NCBI GenBank assembly: GCA_019235885.1
Contig: JAFAKB010000093.1
Location: 1-43,364, forward strand
Length of the DNA: 43,364 nucleotides
Source: Candidatus Eremiobacterota bacterium
GTDB lineage: Bacteria > Vulcanimicrobiota > Vulcanimicrobiia > Vulcanimicrobiales > Vulcanimicrobiaceae
Direction: 5' to 3'
The translations under genes were made by a program, and so were the position numbers. Shown here piece after piece: positions 5,640-8,602 of the stretch. The number at the start of each line of letters is the position of its first letter. The stretch's first letter is position 1. The notes below the pieces were generated by a model, which was not told the DNA's origin, did no database searches, and worked only from the letters and a program-made list of their open reading frames with translations.

Positions 5640-6344
5640 ATGCTCCAAGCAGCCAGCCATGAGCGCCACCGTGGCGGACCGCAGACGATCCGCGATCTCG
5701 TCCTCGGGATGGCCGACGGGCTGACGGTCCCCTTCGCGCTCGCCGCCGGCGTGACCGGTGCGATCGCCGCGAGCAAGATCGTGCTCACCGCCGGCTTGGC
5801 GGAGATCGTCGCCGGCGCGATCTCGATGGGGCTCGGCGGTTACTTGGCCGCCCGCAGCGAGCTCGCGCACTACAACAAAGAGTACGCCCGCGAGGTGCGC
5901 GAGACGCACGAGATCCCGAACGAAGAGAAGGCCGAGGTCGCGCAGATCCTGCACGACTACGGCGTCCGCGAGCCGACGCTCTCGCGCGTGGTCAACGAGA
6001 TCGCAAGCGACCGCGAGCAGTGGGTCGAGTTCATGATGCGCAACGAGCTCGGTCTCGAGCGCCCCGACGACCGCGCGGCGCCGCGCAGCGCGATCCTGGT
6101 CGGCGGCGGCTACGTGCTCGGCGGAATCTTCCCGCTCGCGCCATACGCGCTCGTCCACGACGCACACCAAGCGCTGACGTGGTCGATCGTCTTCACGACG
6201 TTCGCGCTGCTCGTGTTCGGCGCCGTCCGCGCCCGCGTGCTCGCAACGCCGGTCCTCCTCGGCGCGCTACAGACCTGGTTCATCGGCGCGCTCGCCGCAG
6301 GCGTCGCATATGCGCTCGCGCGGCTGGTAAACCACGCGGTCTGA
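5640..6344 (+). CDS. VIT1/CCC1-family Fe2+/Mn2+ transporter
   Basis: This is a 234-residue membrane protein of the VIT1/CCC1 family. The first helix region IRDLVLGMADGLTVPFALAAG matches the family signature, with the ion-pathway Asp in GMADGL. GAISMGLGGYLAARSE is the second conserved helix. A cytoplasmic acidic loop (YAREVRETHEIPNEEKAEV to LGLERPDD) carries the Glu-rich metal-binding part, and three more hydrophobic segments follow. Family members move Fe2+ or Mn2+ out of the cytoplasm by proton exchange; this role is inferred. The stop directly abuts the converging GNAT toxin stop. Confidence 0.9.
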   Translation: MLQAASHERHRGGPQTIRDLVLGMADGLTVPFALAAGVTGAIAASKIVLTAGLAEIVAGAISMGLGGYLAARSELAHYNKEYAREVRETHEIPNEEKAEVAQILHDYGVREPTLSRVVNEIASDREQWVEFMMRNELGLERPDDRAAPRSAILVGGGYVLGGIFPLAPYALVHDAHQALTWSIVFTTFALLVFGAVRARVLATPVLLGALQTWFIGALAAGVAYALARLVNHAV

Positions 6345-6878
6345 CTAGCCGGCTTGGCGCTGCCGGTCAGCGCGGCCGAGCAGCTCGCGCACCGTCGCTA
6401 TCGGGATGAACAGCTTCAGCGACCCGGGCTCGAAACGGCGGAAGCCGACGCGTTCGTAGAACGCGACGACCTTTTCCTCGAGCGCGTCGACGACGATCGC
6501 GACGCCGCCGACCTCGTCGGCGACGCGCGCGCAGCGCGCCATCGCGTCCATCAGCAACAGCTCTCCAATGCCGCGGCGCTTGACGGACTCCGAGACCGCC
6601 AACCGCGCGACCAGCGATGCCGGAAGCTCGTGCTTGGGCAGCTTCAGCTTCTTTGCGATGGTGTCGGGGAGGGCGCCGGCGTCGATGCGGCACGTCGTCA
6701 CCGTGTAGTATCCGAGGATCACCGTTTCGTCCGCTTCGTCGACTGCGACGTACGTTTTCGAGAGCCCCTTGGCGAGTGCCTGATGCGCGTACTCGTGAAT
6801 GAACCGGTCGAGCGGCTCTTTGCCTGATCTAAACGCCAGGCGGTGGTGCTTGTCCTTTTGCAGGGACTCGATGATCAC
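6345..6878 (-). CDS. GNAT-family toxin of a DUF1778-GNAT toxin-antitoxin pair (TacT-like)
   Basis: This is a 177-residue GNAT acetyltransferase of the TacT/AtaT/ItaT toxin group, whose members acetylate the amino acid on charged tRNAs and stop translation. The family N-terminus is clear: FRSGKEPLDRFIHEYAHQ and then YVAVDE. The acetyl-CoA loop reads SVKRRGIGELLLMDA (R/QxxGxG/A), and AFYERVGFRRF is the conserved C-terminal tyrosine region. The start is GTG 6878, overlapping the antitoxin stop by 4 nt as GTGA, so the two are translationally coupled. Toxicity and target are inferred from the family and the gene pairing. Confidence 0.9.
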   Translation of the reverse strand: MIIESLQKDKHHRLAFRSGKEPLDRFIHEYAHQALAKGLSKTYVAVDEADETVILGYYTVTTCRIDAGALPDTIAKKLKLPKHELPASLVARLAVSESVKRRGIGELLLMDAMARCARVADEVGGVAIVVDALEEKVVAFYERVGFRRFEPGSLKLFIPIATVRELLGRADRQRQAG

Positions 6879-7210
6879 GGGCGGCTCTTGACCTCGCGCG
6901 CATAGCGTTTGGCGAGCGCAACGAGCCGGTCGTTCGGCCGAGGCGGCTTCGCCAATGCCGTGAGGAACGTCTCACGGGCGCGGTCGTTAAGAACGATCCG
7001 CTCATGCTCGGCGATGACGCGCTTCGCGCGCTCTTCCACCGCGGTTCGCATGAACTCGGACAGCGTCTGCCCGGTCAGCGTGGCAGCGCGAATCAGGAGT
7101 TCCTTCTGCTCCGCCGTGGGGCGGAATTGCGCGCGGTCCCGCGTCTTGCGCGCGCCGCTGGACGCCAATGCGGTAATGCGGTCATCTTCGGATTTCGAAA
7201 GCGGCGACAT
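6875..7210 (-). CDS. DUF1778-family antitoxin (TacA-like)
   Basis: This 111-residue antitoxin is of the DUF1778 ribbon-helix-helix type. RAQFRPTAEQKELLIRAATLTGQTLSEFMRTAV, read in pieces, is the DNA-binding part. The C-terminus NDRARETFLTALAKPP is the typical toxin-neutralising segment with its Phe and Pro. It precedes and overlaps the GNAT toxin by 4 nt. An AGGAG ribosome site lies 9 nt upstream of ATG 7210. About 33 nt further upstream is a perfect palindrome containing the promoter, which is the expected site of autorepression by the antitoxin or the complex. Confidence 0.92.
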   Translation of the reverse strand: MSPLSKSEDDRITALASSGARKTRDRAQFRPTAEQKELLIRAATLTGQTLSEFMRTAVEERAKRVIAEHERIVLNDRARETFLTALAKPPRPNDRLVALAKRYAREVKSRP

Positions 7211-7243
7211 GCGAACAAGCTCCTGAGGTGAGTTCCGGCGAGG

Positions 7244-7278
7244 CTTGCATTGTACGCCATTTTGGCGTACAATGCAAG
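7244..7278. promoter_or_regulatory. palindromic promoter/operator of the DUF1778-GNAT operon
   Basis: This is a perfect inverted repeat with 16-bp arms (7244-7259 and 7263-7278) around TTT. On the minus strand it holds -35 TTGCAT (7277-7272), a 17-bp spacer and -10 TACAAT (7254-7249), placing a start about 35 nt before the antitoxin ATG. Because of the symmetry the plus strand has the same promoter (TTGCAT 7245-7250, TACAAT 7268-7273). An RHH antitoxin bound here would block both. Confidence 0.8.
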
Positions 7279-7405
7279 GCGTGCCTCAGCGGCTAGCGGT
7301 TCTTGAGCGCCGTTCGGTCTCATCTTGTTATCTTGTGCCTTGAAGATAAAACGCTGGAGACGCCGCCGATGCACAAAACCCGGATCGTGTTACGACCCGG
7401 GTTTT
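7279..7405 (+). ncRNA. possible short transcript divergent from the toxin-antitoxin promoter
   Basis: The plus-strand half of the palindromic promoter would start RNA near 7280, and the terminator hairpin at 7375-7405 would end it, giving about 125 nt. No convincing reading frame lies in it. It holds a small hairpin (TATCTT near 7329 pairing with AAGATA). Inferred only; the plus-strand promoter may simply be a by-product of operator symmetry. Confidence 0.25.
7375..7405. terminator. hairpin terminator, usable in both directions
   Basis: AAAACCCGG (7375-7383) pairs with CCGGGTTTT (7397-7405), with a further TCGT/ACGA pairing in the loop. It starts 7 nt past the 3' end of tRNA-Val on the minus strand and would give a run of U in either direction. 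Confidence 0.8.
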
Positions 7406-7412
7406 CTGACGA

Positions 7413-7487
7413 TGGTGGGCGGCAGAAGGATTGAACTTCTGACCTCTACAGTGTCAATGTAGCGCTCTCCCACTGAGCTAGCCGCCC
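7413..7487 (-). tRNA. tRNA-Val(GAC)
   Basis: The sequence folds into a full cloverleaf. The acceptor GGGCGGC pairs with GCCGCCC, the D arm is GCTC..GAGC, and the anticodon stem CTACA/TGTAG surrounds TTGACAC, giving anticodon GAC. The T arm is AGAAG-TTCAATC-CTTCT. The 3' CCA is encoded. A hairpin terminator follows. Confidence 0.95.
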
Positions 7488-7546
7488 GTCCAAGGGGTGA
7501 GTGTACCGGATGCGCCCGGCGAAAGTCAAACCCCTTTCCCGTGCCG

Positions 7547-8602
7547 CTATGCCCGGGCCGCGCTGCTGCCAAGCGCCGCCCGAACGGGCTTGAATCGGCG
7601 CTCGAGCGCGCCGCCCAGCCCGCCGGGGACAAAGAGGACCAGCACGATGAAGAGCACGCCCAGCAGAAAGAGCGGTTCCGAGAGCGGGACGCGCAGCACG
7701 CCGGGGAGTGACTGCACCGCGGGCGTGTTCGAGAGCGCGACCAGGCGGAAGTCGAGGTACTCGTAGACGATCCCGCCGAGCACCGCGCCCCATAGCGTCC
7801 CGACGCCGCCGAGTACGACCATCACCAGCAGCGCGAGCGTGAAGTCGGCGGTCGTCACCTGCGGGTTCGCGCCGCCTTGCAGCAGCAGGTAGACCACGCC
7901 GGTCGCCGACGCCAGAAACGCCGAGAGCACGAACGCCCCGAGCTTGTAGAGGTACGGGTTGAGCCCGAGCACGCCGACGCGGCGCTCGTTCTCGCGGATC
8001 GCCTGCCACACGCGGCCCGGCGGCGAGTTCACAGCCCGCCACGCAATCGCGTACACCACCAGCAGCAGCGCCAGCGCGATCCAATAGACGTTGTGCGTGT
8101 TCGCGACGCCGACCAGCGCGGGCGGGAGCGTGTCGCTGCCGAGCGCGAGACCCTCTTCCCCGCCGGTCAGCCCGAACGGGTTCTGGCTCACCAGAATCGA
8201 GCCGGCCTGCGCGAACGCCAGCGTCACCATCGCGAACGGAATGTCGCGCATCCGCAGGCAGATCGCGCCGAGCGCCAGCGGCAGCACGACGGAGACGACG
8301 GCGGTCAGCGCGAGCGCTTGCGGCAGGCTCCAGTGCCAGCGCGTCAGCGCGATCGCCGTCACGTAGACGCCGGTAGCGAAGTACAGCGCGTGCCCGAACG
8401 AGAGCAGCCCGACGTACCCGAACACGAGATCGTACGTGAGCGCGAGCGCGCCGAAGACGAAGCACAGCCCGAGCAGGTTCAACGTGCCGGGCGCATTGAG
8501 CGCGCCTTCGAACAAACCCGGAATCGCGATCCCGATCCACGGCAGCGCGATGCACAGCGCGAGCACGACGCCGAGCGCGATCAAGCGCGTGCGACGCGTC
8601 AT
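7547..8602 (-). CDS. livM: branched-chain amino acid ABC transporter permease LivM
   Basis: This is a 351-residue permease with about ten hydrophobic segments. The LivM signatures are present: YDLVFGYVGLLSFGHALYFA, the substrate-pathway loop NPFGLTGGEEGL, and the transmission-helix region REN..RVGVLGLNPYLYKL, which contacts the ATPases. The end GTLWGAVLGGIVYEYL and FVPGGLGG are also typical. It pairs with LivH to form the membrane channel. ATG 8602 overlaps the livH stop by 4 nt (ATGA). It is the last gene of the five-gene liv operon and ends about 60 bp from tRNA-Val. The exact substrate (Leu/Ile/Val, amides or urea) cannot be fixed from sequence. Confidence 0.93.
   Translation of the reverse strand: MTRRTRLIALGVVLALCIALPWIGIAIPGLFEGALNAPGTLNLLGLCFVFGALALTYDLVFGYVGLLSFGHALYFATGVYVTAIALTRWHWSLPQALALTAVVSVVLPLALGAICLRMRDIPFAMVTLAFAQAGSILVSQNPFGLTGGEEGLALGSDTLPPALVGVANTHNVYWIALALLLVVYAIAWRAVNSPPGRVWQAIRENERRVGVLGLNPYLYKLGAFVLSAFLASATGVVYLLLQGGANPQVTTADFTLALLVMVVLGGVGTLWGAVLGGIVYEYLDFRLVALSNTPAVQSLPGVLRVPLSEPLFLLGVLFIVLVLFVPGGLGGALERRFKPVRAALGSSAARA

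Follow-up and report, generated by a model that had tools for sequence, protein, structure and literature searches.

A perfect palindrome upstream of a tacAT toxin-antitoxin operon: probable autoregulatory operator, with an opposed promoter as the probable by-product of its symmetry

Does a palindrome that reads as a promoter on both strands control one transcript or two? The question is raised by a 35 bp palindrome at 7244-7278 of the window, the 43,364-nucleotide stretch of DNA analysed here, which is contig C93 of a 4.5 Mb genome in 105 contigs. An earlier note on this DNA had described the palindrome as an operator that is at the same time two opposed promoters, one driving a DUF1778-GNAT gene pair and the other facing a stretch from which a short, co-regulated RNA could be made. 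The arms, CTTGCATTGTACGCCA and TGGCGTACAATGCAAG, enclose a centre of 3 nt and pair at 16 of 16 positions, giving a perfect 16-3-16 arrangement. In 20 windows simulated with a first-order Markov model and scanned with loops of 0-8 nt, the longest perfect arms were at most 14 bp, compared with the 16 bp observed. A search of the same genome found no second copy of the full palindrome with up to three mismatches, and none of its core (7251-7271) with up to one.

Reading both strands of 7244-7278 confirmed the sequence TTGCAT-17-TACAAT on each. On the minus strand, the predicted tacAT promoter (7249-7277) consists of a -35 element at 7277-7272, a 17-nt spacer, and a -10 element at 7254-7249, with a predicted start near 7242. 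Its mirror image on the plus strand (7245-7273) has the -35 element at 7245-7250, the same 17-nt spacer, and the -10 element at 7268-7273, with a predicted start near 7281. The promoters had been called perfectly spaced, and this holds for the spacers; the hexamers are only moderate, TTGCAT matching the consensus at 3/6 positions and TACAAT at 5/6. With a total of 8/12, the pair lies below the limit of our promoter scan (9/12) and was not listed by it. Single promoter-like sites of this grade were as frequent in the window (5) as in 30 simulations (mean 5.3), and a lone site is therefore no evidence of a promoter. An opposed pair overlapping by at least 25 bp was found in none of 60 simulations. 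The two promoters nevertheless count as one observation, because any -35/-10 pair centred on a dyad reads on both strands automatically.

Many promoters of E. coli and Salmonella are bidirectional; in the available parts of the reports, their starts lie 7-25 bp apart, mostly 18 bp, and the -10 element is shared (PMC12825309, PMC10268837). The palindrome resembles these promoters, described by Warman, Grainger and colleagues, in that symmetric DNA could likewise seat polymerase in either direction. In contrast to the arrangement given in the accessible portions of that work, the two -10 elements of the palindrome (7249-7254 and 7268-7273) are separate, each overlaps the opposite -35 element, and about 40 bp separate the predicted starts, a distance that places the palindrome outside that definition.

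The genes on the tacAT side are readily assigned. A 111-aa ribbon-helix-helix antitoxin of the TacA family (DUF1778) is encoded at 6875-7210 on the minus strand (PF08681, E 5e-21; 74.9 bits against a Pfam cut-off of 21); its structural relatives in the PDB include KacA (5zgn, E 5.6e-14) and the DUF1778 chain of 6ajm (E 1.7e-12), which we take to be AtaR. The gene is preceded, 9 nt before its start, by AGGAG (7220-7224, minus strand), a probable ribosome-binding site. The toxin gene (6345-6878, minus strand; 177 aa) overlaps the tacA stop by 4 nt (6875-6878), and its product matches the Pfam GNAT family, with 6g96, presumably Salmonella TacT, as the best PDB match (E 1.2e-23) and KacT (5zgn) at E 1.6e-16. 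The toxin sequence AFYERVGF aligns with AFYLRLGF of KacT, so that the conserved tyrosine near the C-terminus, to which we attribute a catalytic role, is present. A ribbon-helix-helix antitoxin, an adjacent GNAT gene, the tyrosine, and, as sequence, a dyad operator were thus all found, and on these grounds the palindrome and the genes downstream of it are an ordinary TacAT module of the type II toxin-antitoxin class with a well-defined operator. Beyond such sequence features, the class is marked by a toxin that acetylates aminoacyl-tRNA and is neutralised by its antitoxin, and by an operon under repression by the complex. Neither protein matched a PADLOC defence-system profile at E 0.01.

KacAT of Klebsiella and AtaRT of E. 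coli combine the same two protein families with the antitoxin gene first, as in the window, where the two genes overlap. Both systems come from a different phylum, and the window antitoxin is extended at its N-terminus by about 23 residues. This extension (PLSKSED..., encoded at 7142-7210) is common to the closest homologues, L003 and L014 in genomes G007 and G081, and the KacA match to the window TacA begins only at residue 24. In the portions of the literature available, Salmonella TacAT was reported to bind its own promoter in vitro (PMC5449658), and AtaRT and KacAT to repress their own operons with a complex that depends on the toxin-antitoxin ratio (PMC10135005). The accessible part of the Salmonella report describes two binding sites in the promoter, compared with one dyad in the window (PMC5449658).

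We then compared the operator core, TGTACGCC-N5-GGCGTACA (7251-7271), which contains two GTACG half-sites, across 149 genomes of the phylum. The exact core was present in three of them (the window genome, G007, and G081), always before the closest TacAT homologues. With one mismatch allowed, 13/149 genomes had a match, compared with 6/149 for a reversed control pattern; around the one-mismatch sites in other genomes no TacA or TacT match was found, and such matches accompanied exact cores only. In the tacAT direction the three loci read TTGCAT-TGTACGCCAAAATGGCG-TACAAT in the window, TTGCACG-TGTACGCCGTTTTGGCG-TACAAT in G007, and TTGTGTT-TGTACGCCAAAATGGCG-TACAAT in G081, the -10 element being kept at the same position in both relatives. 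Seven stretches of viral contigs with the exact TGTACGCC core were dropped, because neither TacA nor TacT was matched in them at E 1e-3.

For a wider comparison, PF08681 was found in 40/149 genomes at 51 places. The census profile recovered 50 of these (L118 in G062 gave no match and was dropped), and two domain sequences, L026 and L031, were identical to others, leaving 48 distinct loci. Together with seven plasmid loci, drawn from the 40 records listed out of 625 with a match, 55 tacA loci were compared. A GTACG-N3..14-CGTAC palindrome lay upstream of tacA in 18/55 loci, which are not independent (one genus contributes 8 of the 48 phylum loci, and L019/L020, L036/L037/L038, and L001/L003/L014 are related); an equal downstream stretch contained it in 0/55, and mononucleotide shuffles gave an expectation of 0.1. 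The core was 19 nt long in 16 of the 18 operators. Four of the seven plasmid loci had the palindrome (Rhizobium beringeri, Marinobacter, Citrobacter, and E. coli). In the remaining 37/55 loci it was absent from the upstream stretch read, and judging from these sequences the TacA operator is either not universal, or degenerate, or located further away.

Viral contigs were scanned for TGTACGG-N7-CCGTACA, which gave at least 120 loci with at least 121 palindromes. Among the matches listed, a recognisable tacA lay within 350 nt in only 17 of the 120 loci, and the operator motif alone is therefore not specific; many of these 17 TacA-linked operators are of one type. The claim that the palindrome is the operator and promoter of the DUF1778-GNAT pair was borne out by the core before the closest homologues in two other genomes and by the half-sites before tacA in other phyla, on plasmids and in viral contigs. 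GTACG, mostly 9 nt, and CGTAC can thus be put forward as a candidate operator motif for many TacA-type antitoxins that can be both scanned for and tested. A literature search, for which most subscription papers were out of reach, returned no paper on a palindromic operator of a DUF1778/GNAT pair or on a GTAC operator of a GNAT antitoxin.

Two loci deserve separate mention. The operator of a second tacAT pair in the window genome (L012, G000:C18:125066-125845), GTACGCCACTTGGCGTAC, resembles that of the window but is shorter by one base, and cross-regulation with the window TacA is possible. At L004/L018 (G002:C6:31663-32360), the antitoxin match covers residues 57-111 only, the GNAT gene retains 62% identity, and no good palindrome was found upstream; this may be a toxin with a decayed antitoxin.

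Taken together, we are fairly confident in reading the palindrome as the operator through which a TacAT (DUF1778-GNAT) type II operon regulates itself, and the mirror promoter as a by-product of that operator's symmetry. The toxin-antitoxin pair is very probably switched on and off at this palindrome. The two GTACG half-sites are very probably bound by TacA, either by itself or together with TacT. They fill the spacer between the tacAT -35 and -10 elements, and the downstream half-site supplies the TAC of the -10 element TACAAT. On such shared DNA, repressor and RNA polymerase would compete, with TacA or TacAT excluding polymerase. In this genome the symmetry reaches outward from the core to arms of 16 bp, so that a -35 and a -10 element are also present on the other strand. 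Use of this mirror promoter by polymerase may give at most a short RNA, stopped at the terminator of the neighbouring tRNA-Val gene, and the binding of TacA or TacAT would block polymerase in the rightward direction as well.

Beyond the core, eight outward pairs were counted in the window, 11 in G097, nine of the first 10 in G096, and five each in G133 and the Citrobacter plasmid; the other 13 of the 18 operators had at most two outward pairs in a row. Extended symmetry is thus commoner than chance (at least five outward pairs in 5/18 operators, one of them with a mismatch), implying that it may be selected rather than incidental. The perfect arms may reflect extra repressor contacts or template-switch correction. 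Quasipalindrome correction by template switching is a mutational mechanism, and it could have copied the -35 flank across the dyad. We regard this as a plausible origin, at somewhat less than an even chance: the left flank TTGCA(C/T) is common to the window and G007, the right flank GCAAG is found in neither G007 nor G081, and outward pairing is nearly all-or-none among the 18 operators. However, just two close relatives are available to polarise the change, and selection would give the same pattern.

The outer arms could instead be extra binding sites, with a larger TacA-TacT complex covering all 35 bp and the promoter symmetry following from repressor recognition. The outer sequences CCTTAAG...CTTAAGG are kept in G096 and G097 despite differing bases between them, and the five operators with at least five outward pairs also fit such an account, as do the two TacAT sites described in the available part of the Salmonella report (PMC5449658). 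We nevertheless consider it unlikely, given that by eye the outer arms differ among the window, G096/G097, G133, and the Citrobacter plasmid, that 13 of the 18 operators have no outer arms, and that the first five outward pairs are present in 0/17 viral operators among the matches listed. In the two related loci that keep these arms (L019 in G097 and L020 in G096), the bases adjoining the core vary, and another GTACGGAT half-site comes next.

Neither of the two nearest relatives has kept the mirror -10, which reads TACACG in G007 and TACAAA in G081; both retain the core and the TACAAT of the tacAT direction. Among the 18 operators, an exact TACAAT was present in the tacAT direction in eight and in the mirror direction in the window alone, which is also the only operator with both. 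Under a looser rule (at least 4/6 matches with T at position 6), a -10 was found in 11/18 operators in the tacAT direction and in 4/18 in the mirror direction (the window, G096, G133, and the Citrobacter plasmid); when a -35 of at least 3/6 was also required, the counts were 10/18 and 4/18. The four mirror elements compare with about two expected (P(>=4) = 0.13, with equal base frequencies assumed).

The viral set, which is independent of these 18, gave a similar picture for the mirror direction, with mirror promoters in 0/17 TacA-linked operators among the matches listed. By the same rule (T at position 6), a good promoter in the tacAT direction was present in only 2/17 of the listed matches; 11/17 of them had TTGACA or TTGACG 17 nt before TACATA or TACATG in that direction. 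TACAAT occurred on one side of 97 viral sites, five of which were linked to tacA, and in two of these five it pointed away from tacA; the two operators, L334 and L335, lie beside tacA on viral contigs.

The mirror side in G007 and G081 faces other ORFs than in the window, presumably an MsrA-like gene in G007 and an argF-like gene in G081, as judged from their translations. In G096 it faces what we take, likewise from translation, to be a TatD-like gene. As sequence the mirror promoter is genuine, but it is conserved in neither of the nearest relatives and is probably incidental. Where a symmetric repressor site sits on a promoter, a second promoter in the opposite direction comes with it at no cost. 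Since the TacA half-site contains the start of an outward -10 element (GTAC, then AnT), operators of this kind would be a few mutations away from a repressor-gated bidirectional promoter. It is conceivable, although we think it improbable, that the window, G096, G133, the Citrobacter plasmid, and two viral operators took this step, so that TacAT came to control a neighbour or a short RNA. No paper on a toxin-antitoxin system with a bidirectional promoter, a palindrome, and antisense transcription was found in a literature search that had most subscription papers outside its reach.

We next consider the stretch downstream of the mirror promoter (7279-7371, plus strand); the earlier note had proposed the conservation of 7279-7405 as a check on its short RNA. 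With up to six candidates scored per genome, nothing in the other 148 phylum genomes matched 7279-7371, and its predicted fold was close to that of shuffled sequences (z -0.74). The longer segment 7281-7412, which includes the terminator hairpin, gave z -3.59. A scan of 6900-7800 against Rfam yielded the tRNA as the only family at gathering score. Neither conserved sequence nor unusually stable structure, either of which would mark a small regulatory RNA, was therefore found in 7279-7371, and a small RNA from the mirror promoter was rejected as a candidate on conservation, fold without the terminator, and Rfam. A small plus-strand ORF was also rejected: the TTG-initiated ORF at 7303-7434 extends into the tRNA and matches no Pfam family.

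These results leave the co-regulated short RNA, as far as sequence can tell, with no support beyond the promoter motif. It was not upheld, given the loss of the mirror -10 in both nearest relatives, the few mirror promoters elsewhere, the unmatched and ordinarily folding stretch, and a terminator that belongs to a neighbouring gene. We accordingly regard it as very unlikely that the mirror promoter is working and selected, with TacAT co-controlling a plus-strand RNA from 7281 to about 7410, even though the mirror copy of TTGCAT-17-TACAAT is exact, the hairpin at 7372-7408 has a short T-run on the plus strand too, and divergent RNAs from near-symmetric promoters are described as common in E. 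coli and Salmonella in the parts of the reports available (PMC12825309, PMC10268837). The different ORFs on the mirror side in G007 and G081 also argue against such selection. A rightward transcript from the mirror promoter is possible and would probably be incidental.

The strong terminator that had been placed at the end of a 125-nt stretch facing the mirror promoter is real as a hairpin (7372-7408), which ends about 127 nt from the predicted plus-strand start and has a short T-rich tail on both strands; it was not listed by a consensus terminator scan. Its assignment did not stand. The hairpin directly follows tRNA-Val (gac), which lies at 7413-7487 on the minus strand (Rfam tRNA at gathering score) downstream of the promoter-like sequence TTGACT-18-TACACT (7500-7529, minus strand), and a similar -10 was seen there by eye in relatives. 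In 9/9 genus relatives, one locus each, a hairpin follows the tRNA on the tRNA's strand; the arm sequences differ, and the tail is T-rich, weakly so in L051-L053. The tRNA is tRNA-Val in eight of the nine and a different tRNA in L054; four further loci (L055-L058) were left out because the tRNA piece was absent. The hairpin is thus most simply read as the tRNA-Val terminator, on the strand opposite to the proposed RNA. As a caution for similar loci, a mirror promoter with a terminator nearby need not mean a small-RNA gene.

The relatives also suggest how the tacAT module came to lie beside this terminator. On its left, the module is bordered by a VIT1-family gene (5640-6344, plus strand; PF01988, E 4.7e-67). 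In three of the nine relatives read, VIT1 lies directly beside tRNA-Val, the distance from its stop codon to the tRNA being 41, 52, and 78 nt in G003, G006, and G004, with the hairpin between; in the window the distance is 1068 nt. VIT1 was not found at this position in the DNA examined from the other six. LivM, tRNA-Val, VIT1, and ThrS follow the window's order in G004, without tacAT. These arrangements point to an insertion of tacAT between VIT1 and tRNA-Val as the most likely course of events. Earlier, the two genes would have converged on the hairpin and probably shared it, and this would account for its having a T-run on each strand. The stop codons of VIT1 and tacT now abut tail to tail at 6344-6345, and the insertion would have moved VIT1 away from the hairpin, which in three relatives comes next after this gene, making convergent antisense transcription possible.
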